Below, one piece after another: positions 5,153 to 16,927 of a stretch of DNA of 42,895 nt. Origin of the DNA: Myxococcaceae bacterium. Its GTDB lineage: Bacteria > Myxococcota > Myxococcia > Myxococcales > Myxococcaceae. The notes beneath the pieces were generated by a model, which searched no databases, was not told where the DNA came from, and saw nothing but the letters and a program-made list of their open reading frames with translations. The position numbers and the translations under genes were made by a program. The stretch's first letter is position 1. Each line of letters begins with the position of its first letter. The stretch spans positions 1 through 42,895 of the forward strand of contig JAIBBR010000030.1 in assembly GCA_019694575.1 (NCBI GenBank), in the 5' to 3' direction.

Positions 5153-5201
5153 TGACACGTACTTGACGAACCGCGCCCTAACCTCATATCGAGCGCAACC
5201 C

Positions 5202-7901
5202 ATGGGTAAACCGCTCGTCATCGTCGAGTCACCAGCCAAAGCAAAAACGATCGGCCAGTTTCTGGGCGACAAGTTCAAAGTCATGGCTTCTATCGGCCAT
5301 GTGGTCGATTTGCCCTCGGGCGGTTTGGCCGTCGACGTCGAGAACGACTTCAAGCTCACCTACGAGGTCACCAAGAAAGACGTGGTGCGTGACCTCAAAG
5401 ACGCGCTCAAGGGCTCGAGCGAACTGTACCTGGCGACAGACGAAGACAGAGAGGGCGAGGCCATTGCCTGGCACTTGATGGAGCAGTTGAAGCCCAAAGT
5501 GCCGGTGAAGCGCATGGTGTTTCACGAAATCACCAAGCGGGCCATCGCCGAGGCGGTAGACCATTGGCGTGAGCTCGACCCGGGCTTGGTCGACGCGCAA
5601 GAAACGCGCCGCACGCTAGACCGTTTGTATGGCTATGAAGTGTCGCCGGTGCTGTGGCGCAAGGTGAAGACGGGCCTCTCGGCCGGCCGCGTGCAGAGCC
5701 CCAGCATTCGTTTGATTGTCGAACGTGAGCGCGAGCGCATGCGGTTTCGCAGCGTCGCCTATTGGGACATTTCGGCCCATCACCCCACCACGCCGGCGTT
5801 TTTCTCTAACCTGTTCACGGTCGAGGGCAAGCGCGTCGCGGCGGGCAAAGACTTCGATGAGAACGGCCAGCCCAAGAAAGACGTGTTGGTGCTCGACGAA
5901 GCCGGCGCCGACAAGCTGGTGGCGGGTTTAGAAGGGTTGAAGTTCAAAGTGGCGTCGCTCGATGAAAAGCCGAGCCGCAGCTCGCCCAAGCCCCCGTTCA
6001 TGACGTCGACGCTGCAGCAAGAAGCCGGGCGCAAATTGAACATGAGCGCGCAGCAGGTCATGCGCGTGGCGCAAGGGCTGTATGAACGGGGCTACATCAC
6101 CTATATGCGTACCGACTCGACCAGTTTGTCGGAGACAGCGCTCAACGCGGCGCGCACGCAAGTGAAAGAGCTGTTCGGCGAGAAATTTTTGCCCGCTGAG
6201 CCGCGCCTTTACGCGAAGAAAGTGAAGAACGCGCAAGAAGCGCATGAAGCGATTCGCCCTGCCGGTGAAGCGTTTCAAACGCCCGAGCAACTGTCGAAAG
6301 AGCTGCAGGCGGCTGAGCTCAAACTTTACGACTTGATTTGGAAGCGCACCGTCGCCTCGCAAATGGCCGACGCCACCGGCATGAGCCAGTCGCTCAAGTT
6401 GGCGGTGACGGCGAAGACGGGTGAAAAGGTAGAGTTTTCTGCCAGCGGCCGCACGATTGTGTTCCCCGGTTACTTGCGGGCGTACGTCGAAGGGTCAGAC
6501 GACCCCGAAGCCGAGCTCGATGACCGCGAGACGGTGCTGCCCACGTTGAAGGTGGGCGATGAAGTCGAAGTGACGGCGCTCGAGCCCAAGGGGCACACCA
6601 CCACGCCGCCCGCGCGTTACACCGAGGCATCGCTGGTGAAGAAGTTAGAAGAGCTCGGCATTGGTCGGCCTTCGACGTACGCGTCAATCATGGGCACGCT
6701 GCAAGCCAAGTACGTGTGGAAAAAAGGCTCGGCGCTGATTCCCAATTGGGAGGCGTTCGCCGTCGTCAATTTGATGGAAAAGCACTTTCAAGAGCTCGTC
6801 GACTACGCGTTCACCGCCCGTATGGAAGATGACCTCGACGAAATCGCCGGCGGGCAGGCGAAGAAAGTGCCGTACCTGAAAGAGTTTTATTGGGGCAGCA
6901 AGAAAGACGGCCGCGATGGTCTGCACAAGCAGGTCACCAGCCATATGGACCGCATCGACGCCGCCGCGGTGAATTCCATTTACATCGGTAAAGACACTGA
7001 AGGCGCCGACATCGTCGTCAAGCCGGGCCGCTACGGCCCTTATGTGAAGCGCGGAGAAGACACCGCCGCGGTACCCGACGCATTGCCTCCTGACGAAATG
7101 ACGCCCGAGCGGGCGCTCGCGTTGCTCAATGCCCCCAAGGGCGACAAACCAATTGGGGTAGACCCGGCAACCGGCTTGAACGTGTACGCGAAGTTGGGGC
7201 GGTTTGGCCCGTACGTACAGCTGGGCGAAATGAGCGATGACAGCAAGCCCAAGACGGCGTCGCTGTTTCGCACCATGTCGCTCGAGACGATGACGCTCGA
7301 CACCGCGCTGCAGCTGCTCACCTTGCCGCGCACGTTAGGCGTGGTCGACGGTGAAGAGGTGAAAGCGCACAACGGCAAGTTCGGCCCCTATGTCACGCAC
7401 GGCAAAGAGAGCCGCAACATGGGCATCGAGAACGAGCCCAAGCTGCTCACGCTGACGCTCGAAGAAGCGATAGAGATTTTGAAGCAGCCCAAGCAGTTTC
7501 GCGGCCGAGGTGCTCCCAAGCCACCGCTCAAGGTGCTGGGGCCCGACCCGGTGTCAGGCAAAGAAATGGTGCTCAAAGAAGGGCGCTTTGGCCTCTATGT
7601 CACTGACGGAGAAACCAATGCGTCGCTGCGCAAGGGCGACACGGTTGAATCGCTCACCCCCGAGCGCGCCGCCGAATTAATGGAAGCGCGCCGCGAGTAC
7701 ATTGCGTCGGGTGCCTCGCCGCGGGGCAAGAAGCCCAAGAAAGGGGCAACGAAGAAGAAGGCGGCGGCTGCAGACAAAGACAAGCAGGCCAAGCAAGCCA
7801 AGCAGGCGAAGGCCTCGGCGCCCAAGTCGAAGGGCAAAGCCACGCCGGCGGCGAAGAAAGGCAAAGGTAAGGTGGCGGCCAAGAAGAAGGGCCGTTCGTG
7901 A
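5202..7901 (+). CDS. topA: DNA topoisomerase I (type IA), TopA
   Basis: This enzyme relaxes negative supercoils through a 5'-phosphotyrosyl intermediate. I start it at ATG 5202, because the family begins with GKPLVIVESPAKAKTIGQFL; an in-frame codon at 5163 would add 13 unconserved residues. The protein then has 899 residues. The Toprim domain carries E9 and the acidic triad D80/D82/E84 in ATDEDREGE. The catalytic tyrosine is Y301 in GYITYMRTDS. The C-terminal region holds several topoisomerase C-terminal repeats (GRYGPYVKRGED, FGPYVQLGE, FGPYVTHGKE, GRFGLYVTDGE) in place of Cys4 zinc ribbons, then a Lys/Ala-rich tail of about 60 residues that probably binds DNA non-specifically. Its TGA overlaps the GTG of the next gene, so the two are likely co-transcribed. 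Confidence 0.97.
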   Translation: MGKPLVIVESPAKAKTIGQFLGDKFKVMASIGHVVDLPSGGLAVDVENDFKLTYEVTKKDVVRDLKDALKGSSELYLATDEDREGEAIAWHLMEQLKPKVPVKRMVFHEITKRAIAEAVDHWRELDPGLVDAQETRRTLDRLYGYEVSPVLWRKVKTGLSAGRVQSPSIRLIVERERERMRFRSVAYWDISAHHPTTPAFFSNLFTVEGKRVAAGKDFDENGQPKKDVLVLDEAGADKLVAGLEGLKFKVASLDEKPSRSSPKPPFMTSTLQQEAGRKLNMSAQQVMRVAQGLYERGYITYMRTDSTSLSETALNAARTQVKELFGEKFLPAEPRLYAKKVKNAQEAHEAIRPAGEAFQTPEQLSKELQAAELKLYDLIWKRTVASQMADATGMSQSLKLAVTAKTGEKVEFSASGRTIVFPGYLRAYVEGSDDPEAELDDRETVLPTLKVGDEVEVTALEPKGHTTTPPARYTEASLVKKLEELGIGRPSTYASIMGTLQAKYVWKKGSALIPNWEAFAVVNLMEKHFQELVDYAFTARMEDDLDEIAGGQAKKVPYLKEFYWGSKKDGRDGLHKQVTSHMDRIDAAAVNSIYIGKDTEGADIVVKPGRYGPYVKRGEDTAAVPDALPPDEMTPERALALLNAPKGDKPIGVDPATGLNVYAKLGRFGPYVQLGEMSDDSKPKTASLFRTMSLETMTLDTALQLLTLPRTLGVVDGEEVKAHNGKFGPYVTHGKESRNMGIENEPKLLTLTLEEAIEILKQPKQFRGRGAPKPPLKVLGPDPVSGKEMVLKEGRFGLYVTDGETNASLRKGDTVESLTPERAAELMEARREYIASGASPRGKKPKKGATKKKAAAADKDKQAKQAKQAKASAPKSKGKATPAAKKGKGKVAAKKKGRS

Positions 7902-8629
7902 GTACGCGCAAAAAGCCTGACGACGAGGTGGCGTACCTCGAGAATTACCGCGCCAAAGACTACCCGCGGCCCTCGGTCGCGGTGGACTTGGTGATTTTCA
8001 CCATTGCTGATGCGCAGCTGCGCGTGCTGCTGGTGAAGCGCAAGGAGCACCCCTTCAAAGGCAGCTGGGCATTGCCCGGTGGCTTCGTGCGCGTGGGTGA
8101 AACGGCCGCTGACCCAGGCGAAGACTTAGAAGCCGCGGCGGCGCGTGAGCTCGAAGAAGAAACCGGCCTCTCGGGTTCACGCGTTTACTTGGAGCAGCTC
8201 TACACCTTTGGCAAGGCGAACCGAGACCCACGCATGCGGGTCATTTCGGTGACGTACTTCGCCTTGGTACGGCCTGACTTGGCGCCGCTGGTGCAAGCGG
8301 GCGGCGACGCAGCGCAGGCGGCGTGGTTTCACGTCGATGGCTTGAAGAAGCTCGAGCTGGCGTTTGACCACCGCGACATCGTGCAAATGGCGCTCACCCG
8401 CATTCGCGGCAAGCTCGACGACAGCCCCTTGGCGTTCGACTTGGTGCCGATGACCTTCACCATACCCGAGCTGCGCCACGTGCACGCCATTGTCACCGGC
8501 TTGCCGCAAGACCCGGGCAATTTTCGCCGGCGTTTCAACCGCATGCTCGATGAAGGGTTGATTGAAAAAGCGCCCGGCAAGCGCATCACCACGTCGAAGC
8601 CGGCCACCGTTTACCGTTTTCGCCGCTGA
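7898..8629 (+). CDS. Nudix-domain protein with C-terminal winged helix, NrtR-type regulator
   Basis: This protein has 243 residues and a GTG start that overlaps the topA stop. Residues about 25-145 are a Nudix fold, with the signature at G62 to E68 followed by RELEEETGL (83-91). Between the two halves of the box there are 14 residues where the canonical motif has 7. The rest (about 150-243) looks like the winged-helix domain of NrtR, with the motif GNFRRRFNRMLDEGLIE. NrtR proteins repress NAD-metabolism genes, and ADP-ribose relieves the repression. The acidic residues of RExxEE are intact, so hydrolase activity cannot be excluded. The next gene has an NMN-adenylyltransferase-like domain, which fits an NAD connection. 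ADP-ribose pyrophosphatase is the main alternative. Confidence 0.85.
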   Translation: MSTRKKPDDEVAYLENYRAKDYPRPSVAVDLVIFTIADAQLRVLLVKRKEHPFKGSWALPGGFVRVGETAADPGEDLEAAAARELEEETGLSGSRVYLEQLYTFGKANRDPRMRVISVTYFALVRPDLAPLVQAGGDAAQAAWFHVDGLKKLELAFDHRDIVQMALTRIRGKLDDSPLAFDLVPMTFTIPELRHVHAIVTGLPQDPGNFRRRFNRMLDEGLIEKAPGKRITTSKPATVYRFRR

Positions 8630-8640
8630 AGGGCTCGGCC

Positions 8641-10017
8641 ATGCACGCGCTCCTCGTCGGCCGGTTTCATGCGGTGACCGCGAGCCAGCGTGAGTGGTTG
8701 AAGTCGCTGCGCTCGCTCGACGTAGACCGTATTTTTTGCGTCGTCACCAGCGCTAACCATTCGGGAACGCGGCGCAACCCGCTCGACGCCGATTCGCGCG
8801 TGCAGTTGCTTCAGCCCGCGCTGCAAGAATCTGGCAAGCCCTTCGAGCTCGTCGCTATCGCCGACATTCCCGAGACGCACGCCTGGGTGCAGCACCTGGT
8901 CGACGCGGTGGCGGCAAAGACTGGCGTCACGCTGAGCGGCGTGAATACGCAGGTGTACACGGCAAACCATGACGTCGAAGCGCTCTTTCGTGCGAGCGGT
9001 TTTGGCACGGTCGCTCCCAAGGTGCAGGGGTTGACGCCGCACGAATTGGTGATGCGCATGGTCGAAGGGCGAGAATGGGAATCACAGGCCTCGCCTGAAA
9101 CGGTGGCGCTCTACCGCCGCGTGGCCATGGCTGAAAAATTGAAGGCGCTGTTTGGCCAAACGCTCGTCAATGATGACGGCGAGCTCGGCCACTGTCGTGA
9201 CTTCGCCAGCTACGGCGCGCAAATGGACGCGGCGCTCAAGCAGAAGCTCGAAGACTTGCTGCCCTGGGTGGTGCCGGGGCTGATTGTCGACAAAGGCTGC
9301 GGCACGGGGAAGCTGCTCGTCGAGCTGTCGCGGCTGTGGCCCCAGTCAGCATTCGTCGGGGTCGACTTGTCGCGCGCGTTTCTGCGGCTCTGTGACGAGA
9401 ACACGTACTTCAGCGAGCACGTTGAATGGGTGGGTGGCAACATCATTGAGCGCCAGTTGGCTTACGGCAGCGCGAGCACCGTCATCTTCTCATCGGTGGC
9501 GCATGAAATTTACTCGTACACCGGCTACTCGCTGGCCGAGTTAGACCGGGCGCTGGCGAATGCCGCGGCTGAATTGCGCAGTGGAGGCCGGCTGCTGATG
9601 CGCGACGGGGTGAGCCCCGGGCAGGCGACGTGGCGCATGCGTTTGTTGAACCAGGCGACGCGAGAGCAGTTCAAGAAGTTTGCGGTGGAGTTCAAGCACG
9701 GGCAGGGCGCGAAGCATGAGTGGGTGGAGGCCGACCAAGTGCGGCTCTCGGCGCATCTGGCCAACGAGTTCATCTGCAAGAAAGACTACCTGAAGAATTG
9801 GCACATCGAGGTGCATGAAGAATACGGGGCGCTGACGCTCGAAGGGTGGGGCCAGGCACTGCAGAAAGCGGGCTTAAAGCCCTTACTGCTCAAGGGCTAT
9901 GTGAATGGGTGGATAGAGAAGAATCGTTACGAGGGGTCAGTGGCGCTCTTCGATGACGCGGGGGCGCCACTCCCTTGGCCGGCGACCAATTGCGTGGTGG
10001 TGGGTGAGAAGCCGTAG
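8641..10017 (+). CDS. NadM-like (degraded nucleotidyltransferase) domain fused to a class I SAM methyltransferase
   Basis: This protein has 458 residues, and GAAGGG lies 8 bases before ATG. Residues 1-170 align by eye with archaeal-type NMN adenylyltransferase (NadM): ALLVGRFHAV, TSANHSGTRRNPLDADSRV, DIPETHAWVQHL, YTANHDVEALFRASGF, RMVEGREWESQ. The catalytic H/TxGH motif is replaced by TASQ (13-16), and the later SGTEIRRRM-like motif reads LTPHELVMRM. Adenylyl transfer is therefore unlikely, and the domain may bind a nucleotide only. Residues about 205-335 are a Rossmann methyltransferase, with motif I VDKGCGTGKLL (216-226) and GVDLS (240-244). The C-terminal 120 residues are unassigned. It follows the NrtR-type gene by 11 bases. 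Substrate and methyl acceptor are unknown. Confidence 0.8.
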   Translation: MHALLVGRFHAVTASQREWLKSLRSLDVDRIFCVVTSANHSGTRRNPLDADSRVQLLQPALQESGKPFELVAIADIPETHAWVQHLVDAVAAKTGVTLSGVNTQVYTANHDVEALFRASGFGTVAPKVQGLTPHELVMRMVEGREWESQASPETVALYRRVAMAEKLKALFGQTLVNDDGELGHCRDFASYGAQMDAALKQKLEDLLPWVVPGLIVDKGCGTGKLLVELSRLWPQSAFVGVDLSRAFLRLCDENTYFSEHVEWVGGNIIERQLAYGSASTVIFSSVAHEIYSYTGYSLAELDRALANAAAELRSGGRLLMRDGVSPGQATWRMRLLNQATREQFKKFAVEFKHGQGAKHEWVEADQVRLSAHLANEFICKKDYLKNWHIEVHEEYGALTLEGWGQALQKAGLKPLLLKGYVNGWIEKNRYEGSVALFDDAGAPLPWPATNCVVVGEKP

Positions 10018-10181
10018 GGCGTCAGGTTCTTGAGTTTCCCTCCTGCGCTCATGTTCGAAAGCGGCTTTAAGAGGCTCCGTGCGGCTGCTGTCGGCACCAC
10101 GTCTCTTTCTTCGCGGGCTTTGGGAATCTCCCGCTCCCGCCGAGTGCCCGGGTGTCACCTGAACTCGCTATCTTCACGTGT

Positions 10182-11075
10182 ATGTCGCTCTCTCGTTTGG
10201 CCCGTTCTCACCCTGCGAAATCAACCCTGCCCCCGCACACCAACGGGGCAGACAGCAAGCTCAAGGTCAGCGCGATTTCGACAACTGGCATCACCAAGAC
10301 GGCTGTGCCCGCGCTACTTTCTGACTGGAAGCAAGCGACGCTCGAGGCCACCGCGCGCGGCTTGGCGGCGAAAGAGATGCAGCCTGACCTCGAAGTATTT
10401 CTTTCGGGTGCGCAGACCAAGCACGGCCGCCCGTTGAATGAAGAAGAGACTGATGCCGCCACCGGCACTTTCTTCGAGCGCAACGCGGGTCTCTTGGCGA
10501 CGCTGAGCAAGAAGCACTTGGGCACTTTCGGCAACGGAGCGCAGCTCGAGAAGAAGGTGACCCAAGCCGTCGACGCCATACGGCCCCAACTCCAAAATTA
10601 CGTAGATCCCTTTACTCCGATTGCGCGGGGCAACCCCAAGGCGCGCGCGAAAGAAGTGATGCTGTGGGAAAACAAAGGGGCCATGGTGCTGTTGGACATT
10701 TACAGCGATCAACCCAAAGCGCTGGTGGTGCCCAAGCAGCAGATGCAGTTTCCCACTGACCAAGCGGCTACTCCGCAAACGCTGCAGGAATTGGCCCGTA
10801 TTTCTGCGCACGTCAGCGATGCGTTCATGAACTCTGAAGGCGTGAAGAAGCCCGCCGGCATTTGGATAAACGCGCCCCAAGATTTGACCGTGAAGCAAAT
10901 GCATGTGCACGTGCGGCCTGACATCGCGCCCTGGTCGAAGTTGCTCAAAAAGCCCAAGTTAGACGGCGCCCAGGCCATCGACTTGATGGCCGACCCCGCG
11001 CTGCGCAAAGCGATGGACCCCGTCTTTCAACGGCTCAGCGCGCAGTTGGTGAAGACGCTTGGCCCGTCGCAATAG
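10182..11075 (+). CDS. HIT-like domain protein
   Basis: I start this at ATG 10182 (297 residues). GTG 10152 would add ten residues, and neither start has a clear ribosome site. The N-terminal 150 residues are unassigned, polar and helical. The C-terminal half resembles a HIT-family nucleotide hydrolase or transferase fold: NKGAMVLLDIYSDQPKALVV, a helix around LQELARISAHVSDAF, and the triad region QMHVHVRPD (239-247). The canonical H-x-H-x-H triad has only two histidines here (241 and 243). The residue after the second is Val-Arg rather than x-His, so this is HIT-like with an incomplete triad. It follows the NadM-like gene by about 165 bases on the same strand. Confidence 0.65.
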   Translation: MSLSRLARSHPAKSTLPPHTNGADSKLKVSAISTTGITKTAVPALLSDWKQATLEATARGLAAKEMQPDLEVFLSGAQTKHGRPLNEEETDAATGTFFERNAGLLATLSKKHLGTFGNGAQLEKKVTQAVDAIRPQLQNYVDPFTPIARGNPKARAKEVMLWENKGAMVLLDIYSDQPKALVVPKQQMQFPTDQAATPQTLQELARISAHVSDAFMNSEGVKKPAGIWINAPQDLTVKQMHVHVRPDIAPWSKLLKKPKLDGAQAIDLMADPALRKAMDPVFQRLSAQLVKTLGPSQ

Positions 11076-11706: not shown

Positions 11707-14700
11707 TTAAGCCTGCAGAAGTTGCGGCTTGCTGGCCAAAATCGCGTCCAGCCAGAGGTTCGACTGCTTTTCGAGCACGCTATTCGCGCGCAAACGCGAA
11801 TTCAGGTGCACAAAATCAACGTGGTCTAACTTTTGGTCTTGGTTGAAGCACGAGAAGACGAAAGTCTCTTTGCCCGTCACTGGGTCGACGTGGCGCTGCA
11901 GGCACTGAGCGCAGATTTCTTTCATCATGCACTGCATCGGCGAATTGATAGAGCCAATGGCTTCGTGGTTCGGCTTCAAGTACTGCTTCAAGATGCCGTG
12001 CCGCGCTTCTTTCACCGCGCGCATCATGCGGTCGCTGCCAATGGCGATAATGCGGTCGACGCTCGAAATGGGCGCCACCGGTTTCAAGCCCAATTTGCCT
12101 TCGGCGAACGCCACAATCGCCTGCACGATGTTGCCGCGAAACGACGCGTCTTGCGGCCGGCGGGCGGCAATCAGCTCGCCTGAATCGACTGACCAGATGA
12201 CTTGGTCGGTACCGGCTTCAACCTCGGCCATCTTGTAACAGTCTTCTTTTTTACGGTAACCGGCGAAGTAAATAACCTTACAGCCCGCAGATTTAAGCGC
12301 CTGACCGATTGAGAAGAGCACCGCGTTGCCCAAGCCGCCTCCGGCCAAGAGCACCGTTTCACCCCCGGGAATTTCAGTCGGAGTGCCCGTGGGGCCCATG
12401 AGCACCACCGGTTCGCCCGGCTTCAGCGCCGCGCACAGCCGTGACGAAGAGCCCATTTCGAGCACGATGGTCGACATCAACCCCTTCTCGGTGTCGACCC
12501 ACGCACCGGTGAGGGCCAGCCCTTCCATCGTGAGACGGGTGCCTTCGACCACCGGCGCGCGCCGCTCGAAGTTCTGCAAACGGTAGAACTGCCCTGGCTG
12601 AAAACGCGCTGCGGCGAAGGGCGCCTTCACCACCACTTCGACGATATTGGGGGTGAGCCGATTGATGGCTTCAACCGTGGCCAAGAACGCGCTGTCGAGT
12701 GAAGCGAAGAACGCCTCGCGCTTCTTCACGTCACCCTGCGGGTGGCGGGGAGTGAATTCTTTAGCGAAGGCGCGCACCACTTCGGTGTGGCCGTCTTTGG
12801 CTGACGCCATGGCCTTCACCACGTTGCCGGCGTAGGTGGGGTGGTTGTCGCCGTAGAAGGTGATGAAGCGGCCGTCTTTTTCGTACGACGTGAAGAACCC
12901 CGAGTCGCGGCCGATGTCTTTGTGCGGCGTCGTCTCTATCAACTTTGGGGGGCTGACCGAGGTGTCCAAGGTGTAGCCCTTGAAGAACGCGCTGTCTTTG
13001 TCGAGCTTGAACGTGCCCGGAAATTCGCGCTCGTAAGTGACGTTGGGCGAAGTGCCCGCCGCCACGCAGACCGTGCGGGCGGGAATTTCGTGGTACTGGC
13101 CCGCGCCTTTGAGCTTGCCGTCGACAATGGTCATGCGCTCGAACTTCATCGCTTTGACCGCTCCCGTTTCATCGGCAATCGCTTCGACGGGGCTCACGTG
13201 CTCGATGAAGCGAATGCCTTCTTCGAGCGCCTTGGCCACTTCTTCATGGTTCAAGCGGTACGCGGGAGACTCGGTCATCGCCCGGCGGTAGCACAGCGCC
13301 ACGCCACCCCAGGAGCGCACCAGGTTGATGAAGTTCGGCGCTTCTTGGGCTGCCCGGGCCCGCTCGCGTTCAGCGCGAATCGCCCGGCCGTGCTCCAAGA
13401 ACGTGAGGTACGTTTTGGTCTCTTCTTCGTCGAGCTTGGCGAGAATTGCTTTTTCAGACGTGGTGGTGAGCAGCCGCTCGTGGCGCAGCAGCACTTTTTC
13501 TACCTGCACCGGGTAATAGGCGAAGAGCTCGGTGGCGGTGTCGATGCCGGTGAGGCCTCCTCCGATGACAATCGCCGGCAGTTGAACCTGCAGGTTGGCG
13601 AGCGAATCTTTTTTGAAAGCACCGGTGAGCTGCAGGGCCATCAAGAAATCTGACGCGGCGCGAATGCCCCGAATCATGTTGTTCTTCATGTTGACCATGG
13701 TGGGTTTGCCGGCGCCCGCGGCGATGGCGATGTGATCAAACCCCAGCTGCCACGCGTCGTCGATGCTCAGCGTGCCGCCAAAACGAATGCCGCCGTAAAT
13801 GCGCAAGTTGTCACGCCGCGAAAGTTGCAAATGCAACAGACTCAAGAACGTTTTGTCCCAGCGCACGGTGATGCCGTATTCAGACACGCCGCCGAAGCCG
13901 GCGAGCACGCGCTCGTCGAGCTCGACCGCCAGTTCGTGCCAGTCACGCACCGGCTTCATTGGCTCGCCGTTTTTGCCGGTCAGCGAATCGGGAAAGGGCT
14001 CGATTTTGAGGCCGTCGATGCCCACCACCGCGAAGCCTTCATTCAAAAGGTAGTGCGCCAGCGTGTAACCCGCGGGCCCCAAGCCCACCACCATGACGTT
14101 CTTGCCGTTGTACGGCAGTGCGTAAGGCCGCTTCACGTTGAGCGGGTTCCACCTTGTGAGCAGACCGTAAATTTCAAAGCCGTAGGGCAAATTCAAAACG
14201 TCGGTCAGCACCGAGGTTTCAATTTGAGGAATGTCGACGGGTTCTTGCTTTTGAAAAATGCAGGCCTTCATGCAGTCATTGCAAATGCGGTGACCGGTGC
14301 CGGCGCACATGGGGTTGTCGAGCACCACCATGGCCAACGCGCCCATCGAGTCGCCCTTGCTCTTGAGCAGGTGCATTTCAGAAATGTGCTCTTCGAGCGG
14401 GCAGCCAGCCAGGTGAATGCCCAGTGGGTTGGGTTTGTATGTGTGCTCTTCGAGAACCGGGTCTTTGGTCTTGAAGCCTTTGGAGCAGCTGTCTTTCTCG
14501 CGCTCGTGGCAAATCACGCAATACTCGACTTGGCCCATGACTTGGCGCGCGTCGGCGCGGCGGTCGGTGAGCTTGAAGCCGTCACGGCGGCGCAAATGCG
14601 AGGCGGGCCCTTCATGCGCTTCGGGCATGTTCGGGTCGGGGTGGGTGACTTCTACCAGCTTGTCGAACACCAACGGCTTGGGCTGGTGAATGGTCGACCA

Positions 14701-15387
14701 GCCGTGAAACGTGTGGGTGAAGAGCGCGCGGGCGTAGGTCCACCGGTCGGCGAGCGAGAGCAACCCACGCACGCCAGCCAAGTCGTCGGCCACCAACGTT
14801 GAACCGAACGCGTCTTTGCCTTCGGGCGTGGCGAGCAGCGCGGCTTTGAGCGACTGCCAGCGGGTGCGCAATTCGGGGCGCGGTTCTTTACCGCTGCCGG
14901 CGAATTCACGTTCGATGTTCATCAGCGTCAGCACTGACTCGGCCAGTTGCCGCTCGGTGTCGTGGCCTTCAGAGCGAAAGCCCAGCGCGAACAACAAGCG
15001 CATGCGGGCATCGAGCGCGGGCAATTCGGCTTGGGTGGGCCGTTCGGGCGCGCCCTTCTTGAAGACGCGACGGGTGACGAACTCGCGCTTGAATTCGAAA
15101 AGCGACAACTCGTGGGTGAGCTTCTCGGTGAGCGCCTTCTGGTGGAGCTCGACGTTGAAGAGCTGGCCCACGAAGCGCGACGTATGTTCCGCGACGGCAA
15201 TCAACAAGGCTGAGATTTTCGGCCCGGTGGGCAGTGGGCCCGGGGTGTGGCGGTACTCGTCGAATTGCGCCGCAAGCGTGCTGTCTTCTTTTTTCAGTTT
15301 GAGTAGGAACGCGTCGTGAAGCCGTTTCAGCCCTTCAGGGGCGTACAGGTCCTCAAAGCGAAAGCCGTCGATTCCGAGCGAGAGCAT
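11707..15387 (-). CDS. single-chain GltD-like/PyrK-like flavoprotein (Nfn/Sud-type oxidoreductase fusion)
   Basis: From ATG 15387 the protein has 1226 residues. Residues 1-285 are a helical extension I do not recognise. Next comes a GltD-type double iron-sulfur region with C290, C293, C301 and C329 (CVICHEREKDSC, GCPLEEHISEMH) and C361, C369, C372 and C376 (CAGTGHRICNDCMKAC). An FAD-binding site VVGLGPAG (433-440) and an NAD(P) site VIGGGLTGID (about 607-616) follow. From about 897 there is a ferredoxin-reductase/PyrK-like module ending in a cysteine set (C1153, C1159, C1162, C1180). In Nfn and sulfide dehydrogenase these halves are separate subunits that pass electrons between NAD(H), NADP(H) and ferredoxin. 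Electron bifurcation is possible but unproven. Its start codon overlaps that of the divergent gene. Confidence 0.85.
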   Translation of the reverse strand: MLSLGIDGFRFEDLYAPEGLKRLHDAFLLKLKKEDSTLAAQFDEYRHTPGPLPTGPKISALLIAVAEHTSRFVGQLFNVELHQKALTEKLTHELSLFEFKREFVTRRVFKKGAPERPTQAELPALDARMRLLFALGFRSEGHDTERQLAESVLTLMNIEREFAGSGKEPRPELRTRWQSLKAALLATPEGKDAFGSTLVADDLAGVRGLLSLADRWTYARALFTHTFHGWSTIHQPKPLVFDKLVEVTHPDPNMPEAHEGPASHLRRRDGFKLTDRRADARQVMGQVEYCVICHEREKDSCSKGFKTKDPVLEEHTYKPNPLGIHLAGCPLEEHISEMHLLKSKGDSMGALAMVVLDNPMCAGTGHRICNDCMKACIFQKQEPVDIPQIETSVLTDVLNLPYGFEIYGLLTRWNPLNVKRPYALPYNGKNVMVVGLGPAGYTLAHYLLNEGFAVVGIDGLKIEPFPDSLTGKNGEPMKPVRDWHELAVELDERVLAGFGGVSEYGITVRWDKTFLSLLHLQLSRRDNLRIYGGIRFGGTLSIDDAWQLGFDHIAIAAGAGKPTMVNMKNNMIRGIRAASDFLMALQLTGAFKKDSLANLQVQLPAIVIGGGLTGIDTATELFAYYPVQVEKVLLRHERLLTTTSEKAILAKLDEEETKTYLTFLEHGRAIRAERERARAAQEAPNFINLVRSWGGVALCYRRAMTESPAYRLNHEEVAKALEEGIRFIEHVSPVEAIADETGAVKAMKFERMTIVDGKLKGAGQYHEIPARTVCVAAGTSPNVTYEREFPGTFKLDKDSAFFKGYTLDTSVSPPKLIETTPHKDIGRDSGFFTSYEKDGRFITFYGDNHPTYAGNVVKAMASAKDGHTEVVRAFAKEFTPRHPQGDVKKREAFFASLDSAFLATVEAINRLTPNIVEVVVKAPFAAARFQPGQFYRLQNFERRAPVVEGTRLTMEGLALTGAWVDTEKGLMSTIVLEMGSSSRLCAALKPGEPVVLMGPTGTPTEIPGGETVLLAGGGLGNAVLFSIGQALKSAGCKVIYFAGYRKKEDCYKMAEVEAGTDQVIWSVDSGELIAARRPQDASFRGNIVQAIVAFAEGKLGLKPVAPISSVDRIIAIGSDRMMRAVKEARHGILKQYLKPNHEAIGSINSPMQCMMKEICAQCLQRHVDPVTGKETFVFSCFNQDQKLDHVDFVHLNSRLRANSVLEKQSNLWLDAILASKPQLLQA

Positions 15388-16927
15388 GAATAGCGGTCTG
15401 GTAGCGCTTGTCGGCAGGGTAAGGCAAGGGCTTCGTGGGTTCGGCCCTCTCGCGGTGGCGCTGGTAGCGGCGGGGCTGTTTCGCTGGCCTCCACTGCTCA
15501 ATGCCAACGGCATCAATTCAGACGCGGCGGTGCCCGGTTTACAGGCGATGCATCTGCTCAAAGGTGAGTGGGCCTGGCACTTGTGGGGCGCCAGCTACCA
15601 GGCCTCGATTGACCCCCTGGTGATTGCCGGTTTCTTTGCGGTGTTCGGCACTTCAGCCCGCGTGCTGGTGTTGGTGCCGTGGTTGTTTCTGCTGCTGCAA
15701 ATCGCGCTGACGTACGACGTGGTGCGCCGCCGGGTGTCGCCCTGGGCCGCGCTGGTGGCGGTCTCGGTCTTGGTATTTGCCACCATGGTCATCAACATGC
15801 CGATGACCTACGTGATGCGCCAGGTGATGGTTACCACGCTGGTGGCAGGGGTATGGCTCGCCGACAAGTCGACCACCGCAGCCCGCCCGGTGCCTTGGCT
15901 CATCGCCAGTGCTGTTTTCATCGTGGGAGGCCTTTTCAACGACTACTTCGCGCTGGTGATGTTGCCGCCCATCGCGCTCTTTGCGCTGCTGTGCGCGTGG
16001 GAAGGCGAAGCAACCCGCCGGTCTCGAATTCAACGGCTGGTGGCGTGGGCGTTGCCGTTTCTCGTTTTGGTGGCGTTGGCTTTGGTGTTTCACCGGGGAG
16101 CTCCGCGCCAGTCGCTGATGGCGCGGCAGTTGGGCCGCAATGGGTCGCTGCTGGTTGAGCAGGTGTTGCCGTTCGCCTTCGGTTACCGCGTTTTCGTTTC
16201 GCATTCGCCCAACGCGTTCGACCCTTGGGTTCTGCCGGCGGCGGTCACCGTGCTGCAGAAAATGGCCGCGGCGTTGGCGGGCATGGTTTGGCTGTTGGGC
16301 GGCCTCGCGGTCTTTTTCAAGCGGGTGCCCTGGCCCACCCGTCGCTTGGCGCTGCTTGGTACTGGCAGTGGCTTGGCCGCGCTGACCGCGTTTCTGCTCT
16401 CGACGCAGCCGTCTGACATGTGGTCGGCGCGGTACTTGGCGCCCCTGGTGTGGATGGCTCCGTTCACGTTTGCGCCGCTCATGAGCGCTGGGGGCGAGAA
16501 GCGCGTCGGCGTGTTGTTGTTGCCGTACCTTGCCAGTGTCGCTTTTGCCGGCTGGCTCTCGTGGGGCATTTACGTCGACGGGCCCTTGCCGCGGCTCGAT
16601 GCCCGGGGCCGCGCTGACGATGAGCGAGTCGTACGAGACTTCTTGCGTGAGAACGGCGTGCAGTACGCGGCGGCCCAGTATTGGCTCGCCTATCGCCTTT
16701 CGTTTCTCTTCGAAGAAAACCCGGTCGTCGTTCCGCTCGCCGACGGTGAAGACCGTTACGCGCCGCACCGCGCCGGTTTCGACGCGGCAAAGAAAACCGC
16801 GCTGATTTTTCACCCGACGGAGTGGCGCGCCTCGCCCGCGCCCTACGAGATGACGCTGCGCAGCAGTCAGGTGCCGTTTGAAAAGCACGACGTCGCTGGC
16901 TTCACCGTGCTGTTGCTCTCGCGCTGA
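15386..16927 (+). CDS. multi-pass membrane protein, GT-C-type glycosyltransferase-like
   Basis: This protein has 513 residues and about ten or more transmembrane helices between residues 20 and 400 (for example VLVLVPWLFLLLQIALTYDV and WALPFLVLVALALVF). A periplasmic-type soluble tail of about 110 residues follows. An early loop after the first helix has NANGINSDAAVPGLQAMHLL, where GT-C enzymes carry an acidic residue. The layout matches the ArnT/PMT group, which moves sugars from polyprenyl-phosphate donors at the outer face of the membrane, but I cannot confirm the family from sequence alone. Two further proteins of similar architecture and a GT2 gene lie close by. Its ATG shares two bases with the start codon of the divergent flavoprotein gene. 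Confidence 0.75.
   Translation: MNSGLVALVGRVRQGLRGFGPLAVALVAAGLFRWPPLLNANGINSDAAVPGLQAMHLLKGEWAWHLWGASYQASIDPLVIAGFFAVFGTSARVLVLVPWLFLLLQIALTYDVVRRRVSPWAALVAVSVLVFATMVINMPMTYVMRQVMVTTLVAGVWLADKSTTAARPVPWLIASAVFIVGGLFNDYFALVMLPPIALFALLCAWEGEATRRSRIQRLVAWALPFLVLVALALVFHRGAPRQSLMARQLGRNGSLLVEQVLPFAFGYRVFVSHSPNAFDPWVLPAAVTVLQKMAAALAGMVWLLGGLAVFFKRVPWPTRRLALLGTGSGLAALTAFLLSTQPSDMWSARYLAPLVWMAPFTFAPLMSAGGEKRVGVLLLPYLASVAFAGWLSWGIYVDGPLPRLDARGRADDERVVRDFLRENGVQYAAAQYWLAYRLSFLFEENPVVVPLADGEDRYAPHRAGFDAAKKTALIFHPTEWRASPAPYEMTLRSSQVPFEKHDVAGFTVLLLSR

Follow-up and report, generated by a model that had tools for sequence, protein, structure and literature searches.

The window analysed here, a stretch of 42,895 nucleotides from a Myxococcaceae bacterium (contig JAIBBR010000030.1), encodes a protein in which a domain with the NMN adenylyltransferase (NadM) fold is joined to a class I SAM-dependent methyltransferase; judging from its sequence and its genomic context, this protein probably couples NAD-related metabolites to a methylation reaction. 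The fusion is a real and conserved domain architecture, apparently undescribed so far; a literature search, with most subscription journals outside its scope, found no paper on an NMNAT-methyltransferase fusion. Computation showed the fold, the replacement of the catalytic motifs, the purifying selection, the fusion itself, the genes that co-occur with it or lie around it, and a candidate NrtR operator of the salvage operon; coordinates are listed in Table 1.

Table 1. Position of the fusion gene, its parts and its upstream neighbours in the window.
Feature	Position	Strand	Remark
topA	5163..7901	+	conserved upstream neighbour of nrtR
NrtR-type Nudix + winged-helix regulator	7898..8629	+	PF00293 4e-23; PF21906 1.4e-11
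NadM-like/methyltransferase fusion gene, 458 aa	8641..10017	+	stop at 10015-10017
NadM-like (NMN adenylyltransferase fold) domain, residues 1-171	8641..9153	+	profile, PDB and structure matches
GRFHAVTASQ, residues 7-16	8659..8688	+	in the place of GR-x-QPFHxGH
RRNPL, residues 44-48	8770..8784	+	kept equivalent of the R47-containing RDPF loop of NMNAT
DIPETHAWV, residues 75-83	8863..8889	+	equivalent of NMNAT D80...W87
LTPHELV, residues 131-137	9031..9051	+	in the place of SGTEVR; R136>V137, E kept
Class I SAM methyltransferase module, residues 179-458	9175..10014	+	includes conserved leader and C-terminal part
VDKGCGTGK	9286..9312	+	SAM-binding motif I
KKDYLKNW	9778..9801	+	hallmark of the methyltransferase C-terminal part

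A NadM Fold with a New Signature

An earlier note on this DNA had proposed that the first 170 residues follow the NadM fold, and every comparison agrees. The full length of the NadM profiles (PRK01153, 1.2e-12; TIGR01527, 1.2e-10) is covered by residues 1-171, which also align end to end with the PDB NMNAT sequence (1.3e-8). The structure prediction suggested as a check likewise gives a NadM-like fold: the model of the N-domain (pLDDT 89, pTM 0.82) resembles Methanothermobacter thermautotrophicus NMNAT (1ej2/1hyb) with a TM of 0.84-0.86 in Foldseek, and its best 19 PDB structure matches are all NadM. The fusion protein should nevertheless not be classed as NadM, since two catalytic motifs are replaced and its scores of 47.8 of 127 bits (PRK01153) and 41.2 of 181.2 bits (TIGR01527) lie below the curated cut-offs.

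Residues of NMNAT are numbered here as in the M. thermautotrophicus enzyme, using the deposited mutants of R11, H19 and R136 (1m8f/1m8g, 1m8k, 1m8j). In the alignment to the PDB NMNAT, R11 corresponds to R8 of the fusion protein, Q13 to H10, H16 to T13, H19 to Q16, R47 to R45, D80 to D75, W87 to W82 and R136 to V137; HxGH thus reads TASQ (residues 13-16), as had been noticed. All 16 homologues covering the N-terminus carry GRFHA(V/I)TxxQ, and the three members outside the family read GRFHALTRTQ (locus L050), GRHHVFTAAQ (L049) and GRHHLLTRFQ (L048). G7, R8, H10, T13 and Q16 are invariant across all homologues, divergent members included, and GR[FH]HxxTxxQ is the signature common to all members in place of HxGH, from which we conclude that HxGH was swapped for a new signature rather than randomly eroded. 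The search for close homologues with an intact HxGH, another check suggested beforehand, found none among the homologues from 25 genomes. Scanning the phylum with PRK01153 gave no NadM above the cut-off; an intact motif is detectable by such a scan, because its top match (genome G186) displays QPFHRGH and SGT.

The second motif calls for a finer distinction. Loss of the SGTEIRRRM-like motif had been claimed, which is right for the ATP-phosphate arginine (R136, replaced by V137) and wrong for the segment, which is present in the close family as LTPHEL(V/L), nearly invariant in the form LTPHELV(M/Q)R. Nor does the description of the domain as "degraded" survive: next to the invariant GRxHxxTxxQ, pairwise dN/dS is 0.13-0.33 for the N-domain vs 0.12-0.31 for the methyltransferase part, so that the N-domain is under purifying selection and maintained rather than decaying.

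The D80...W87 stretch of NMNAT we take to be the NMN side of the ligand pocket. D75, W82 and V83 are invariant in the close family and not in the two most divergent members, L048 and L049, where D75, W82 or R45 is changed. As these residues are not all kept, NMN is doubtful as the ligand of the whole family; it is a plausible ligand for the close family and a less plausible one for L048 and L049.

The Methyltransferase Module and Its Other Partner

The partner domain had been described as an intact-looking class I methyltransferase, and residues 215-332 indeed score above the Pfam gathering cut-offs of PF08242, PF13649, PF08241 and PF13847. VDKGCGTG of SAM motif I is invariant in the close family and the leader of the module is conserved (DDGELGH.RDF..YG..MDA); the module is presumably active as a methyltransferase. 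KKDY and NW are kept in all NadM fusions, and of these residues KDY and W recur in the Nudix-like fusions described below. The whole module matches PRK06922/NF005379 (9.6e-17), with 60.6 of 602 bits, below the cut-off.

Mobile elements gave little. Searches of phages, plasmids and viral contigs with the methyltransferase module found no phage or viral relative, the sole plasmid relative being a Bacillus velezensis methyltransferase of about 275 aa, 27% identical; the divergent fusion members found no fusion in plasmids and phages; and viral structures yielded matches to methyltransferases and to lone cytidyltransferases, with no NadM-like/methyltransferase fusion recognised among them.

In 12 genomes, all of them without the NadM fusion, the methyltransferase profile also retrieved proteins about 740 aa long (among them loci L153-L158 in G063, G066, G013, G065, G093 and G094). 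Their methyltransferase module aligns with that of the fusion (hhalign 1e-39, 34% identity, same KDY...W region) and is followed by about 420 residues weakly similar to ADP-ribose pyrophosphatase (NCBIfam 0.001; profile against PDB 0.03; Pfam NUDIX at best 9e-4, below the cut-off). This part is a probable degenerate ADPR-type Nudix domain; it too looks dead, because its Nudix box, RILHERAG, departs from the REUxEExG required for catalysis. Together, the two architectures suggest that the methyltransferase module has repeatedly been joined to NAD-metabolite binders. At the three loci examined, no NAD genes were recognised beside the genes for these proteins. A functional mutual exclusion of NadM-type and Nudix-type fusions was considered and dropped: no genome has both, and with a Fisher p of 0.37 this is not significant.

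Gene Neighbourhoods, Distribution and a Candidate NrtR Operator

The gene directly upstream had been called NrtR-type, and both its NUDIX and NrtR_WHD domains are above cut-off; against the NCBIfam equivalog NF050029, it reaches 2.4e-52 and 177.9 of 400 bits, below the cut-off. Only 11 bp separate the nrtR stop from the fusion gene, which suggests that the two are transcribed together in the window. Among 17 loci, 15 have a window-type nrtR upstream on the same fragment and strand, usually behind topA, which is probably unrelated in function; nrtR directly adjoins the fusion gene in a few loci, and in others the two are separated by 0.6-2.7 kb of unrelated genes, part of them antisense, so that strict co-transcription is not general.

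The NAD context is strong, stronger than the earlier note had it. In G103, the gene order is NAPRT, PP2C, kinase, nicotinamidase-like, vWA, NrtR and fusion gene (NAPRT called by TIGR01513 at 3.3e-31 and vWA by Pfam; PP2C, kinase and the nicotinamidase-like protein, which had no HMM match, by motif reading). The fusion gene of G006 begins 16 bp downstream of a gene encoding a NadD-like/NAD kinase fusion. In G017 and G018, which belong to another family, the fusion gene lies elsewhere in the genome; both have a vWA-NrtR pair, within a longer PP2C-kinase-nicotinamidase-like-vWA-NrtR string in G017.

The NadD-like/NAD kinase protein encoded at about 6708-8084 of L048 (G006:C24) has PPTAYH instead of HxGH, and its NadD part may thus be altered too. 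A TerY-P-like triad (vWA, PP2C and kinase) is found inside an NAD-salvage string that includes nicotinate phosphoribosyltransferase and the nicotinamidase-like protein (L051 8556-14495, G103:C21; L127, G017; L070, G071). At 730-2760 of locus L128 (G017:C749), directly downstream of a nicotinate phosphoribosyltransferase-like fragment, lies a gene for a 676-aa protein that resembles glutamine-dependent NAD synthetase and has a C-terminal match to the NrtR winged helix (7.2e-27, at 2518-2694). In the window, 10152-11075 encodes a 307-aa protein with sub-threshold HIT/DcpS-C similarity; a conserved operon with this downstream gene was rejected, as the gene was not found in the flanks of the relatives. 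The minus-strand gene at 11707-15561, for a multidomain protein of 1284 aa resembling flavin oxidoreductases (Pyr_redox_2, with a weak match to Fer4_20), recurs close to the fusion gene in some relatives.

With the N-domain profile, the fusion was found in 25 of the 195 genomes of the phylum, and full-length homologues in 17 contigs; the two sets are not independent, since many genomes are common to both. Window-type NrtR (at least 70% identity) occurs in 22 of the 96 genomes of the family, exactly those with the fusion, and the eight with a 59-64% NrtR, like all the others, are without it. Across the phylum, 23 genomes have the cluster-type vWA (at least 62%), and 21 of these also have the fusion; the window genome has no match to this vWA. 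Fisher's test gives p ~4e-22 for the fusion with either gene, a value that is too small in both cases, because ancestry is shared and genomes of a single family are not phylogenetically independent samples.

In genomes with window-type NrtR, AGAGTC-N5-GACTCT lies upstream of NAPRT, over the promoter, and is a palindromic candidate for the NrtR operator on sequence grounds only. The pattern AGAGTNTTGNNNACTCT has one match each in 10 of the 96 genomes, always just upstream of NAPRT, and all 10 carry a window-type or 59-64% NrtR; the reversed control of the pattern has zero matches. Similar sites, several degenerate in one arm, occupy the same NAPRT position in 16 further genomes; the TTGACG part of the NAPRT sites is a likely -35 box, with TATAAC or similar downstream. 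As the only exact site of the window genome is at NAPRT on contig C78, next to the nicotinamidase-like gene, and no NrtR box was found in the window, including upstream of the fusion gene, NrtR would act in trans here, probably as a repressor of the salvage operon.

Proposed Function

The explanation that we favour, tentatively and at somewhat less than an even chance, is that a dead NAD-enzyme domain binds an NAD-related nucleotide and gates the attached methyltransferase within an NAD-salvage module. The N-domain would descend from an NMN adenylyltransferase and have lost the ability to join NMN to ATP. With the nucleotide-binding fold still in place, and with it a good part of the pocket on the phosphate and NMN sides, it would be a module that binds an NAD-related nucleotide (NMN, NaMN, NAD or ADP-ribose). 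Such binding would gate the SAM-dependent methyltransferase, and methylation of the target would then track the NAD-salvage state of the cell, the fusion gene being part of a myxobacterial NAD-salvage module with NrtR, nicotinate phosphoribosyltransferase and the nicotinamidase-like protein. Several observations point this way: the second HxGH histidine is replaced in all members and R136 is gone, while the SAM motif is intact; NAD contexts occur in separate lineages (G103 and G006; the vWA-NrtR pair in G017 and G018); the N-domain has a dN/dS near that of the methyltransferase part; the fusion shares its distribution in the family with window-type NrtR, and genomes with this NrtR have the candidate box at NAPRT; and the same module is joined elsewhere to a Nudix-like part, a match that is itself below cut-off. 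Speaking against it are the pocket residues changed in L048 and L049, the unrelated genes between nrtR and the fusion gene in many relatives, and the window without an NrtR box. A precedent is NrtR of Mycobacterium smegmatis, a Nudix enzyme without hydrolase activity that responds to ADP-ribose (PMC6800001).

The least certain part of this explanation is gating as opposed to substrate presentation, in which the NadM-like domain would hold a nucleotide or pyridine compound for the methyltransferase to methylate (a nicotinamide or nicotinate derivative, for instance, at N or O), as a way to modify or dispose of NAD metabolites. The NAD-salvage neighbourhood and the two unrelated NAD-nucleotide folds on one methyltransferase module would suit it, as would nicotinamide N-methyltransferase among the structure matches of the model; this likeness is, however, one that class I methyltransferases show in general (TM about 0.5, with many equally good matches), the sequence showed no kinship with a pyridine methyltransferase, and a separate substrate-binding domain is, to our knowledge, unusual among small-molecule methyltransferases. 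We find presentation rather unlikely. We also regard it as very unlikely that the domain is still a nucleotidyltransferase with an altered active site (H10/T13/Q16), perhaps acting on another nucleotide or in another reaction. The invariance of these three residues is what one expects of an active site and of a binding site alike, R8 and RxNP are kept, and the archaeal NMNAT is described as working mainly via substrate positioning (PMC1249556), which is why we keep residual or altered transfer activity as a rival; but the second histidine and R136 are both gone, and H19A of E. coli NadD has 0.62% activity left (PMC1249556), so the adenylyltransferase activity of the N-domain has presumably been lost.

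Two further readings move away from NAD sensing. The NadM-like domain might be a structural or protein-binding remnant with no functional NAD link, its place near topA-nrtR being a vertically inherited gene order; that this order persists despite unrelated insertions agrees with such a view, as does a window without an NrtR box, but the separate NAD contexts of G006 and G103, the co-occurrence with the cluster in G017 and G018 and the pocket residues conserved in the close family make it quite unlikely. A stress or anti-phage system in which NAD salvage, TerY-P-like signalling proteins and the methyltransferase work together seems to us highly improbable. The vWA, PP2C and kinase genes of the G103 and G017 clusters do resemble the TerY-P triad (PMC4978471), and the fusion protein has a weak PADLOC match to mad2 of the MADS anti-phage system (1.7e-7, 28.5 bits); however, most of this match covers the generic methyltransferase part, the vWA gene has no match in the window genome, and no phage, plasmid or viral fusion was found.

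Were the gating explanation correct, a known principle would acquire a new output: in NAD metabolism, NrtR already exemplifies a dead enzyme put to use as a sensor, with transcription as output, and here the pyridine nucleotide pool would instead be linked to a methyl mark or a metabolic step. A broader version, which we consider doubtful, is that one methyltransferase family sits under interchangeable dead NAD-metabolism enzymes (pseudo-NadM and pseudo-ADPR-Nudix) and, alongside the NrtR regulon, lets NAD status switch methylation directly. Because the fusion family is small and well bounded, is easily recognised by GRxHxxTxxQ and has a defined genomic setting, both binding and methylation are directly testable; AGAGTC-N5-GACTCT, for its part, offers a concrete candidate NrtR operator for myxobacteria.

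Comparison with Known Systems

The closest known protein is NadM, the archaeal-type NMN adenylyltransferase (PRK01153, TIGR01527; 1ej2, 1f9a), with which the N-domain shares the fold, a full-length alignment, the GR- and RxP-type loops and, in the close family, the NMN-side D...W; unlike NadM, the fusion protein has HxGH and the SGTEIR arginine replaced, scores far under the curated cut-offs and has an added methyltransferase. Bifunctional NadM-Nudix proteins (PRK05379; 2qjo) also join a NadM domain to a second domain in NAD metabolism, whereas here a methyltransferase takes the second place and the catalytic motif is missing from the NadM part. NrtR regulators, whose gene adjoins that of the fusion, use an NAD-enzyme fold as a ligand-binding sensor (the dead Nudix of M. 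smegmatis NrtR, PMC6800001), a principle that the fusion protein may share, but the output of the fusion protein would be methylation and not DNA binding. The class I methyltransferase PRK06922/NF005379 resembles the whole methyltransferase module, C-terminal part included; it is a 677-residue model with a different N-terminal part, and the score of the fusion is one tenth of its cut-off. Finally, the myxobacterial protein of about 740 aa combines the same methyltransferase module with a probable degenerate NAD-metabolite enzyme and differs in that its partner is ADPR-Nudix-like and C-terminal.
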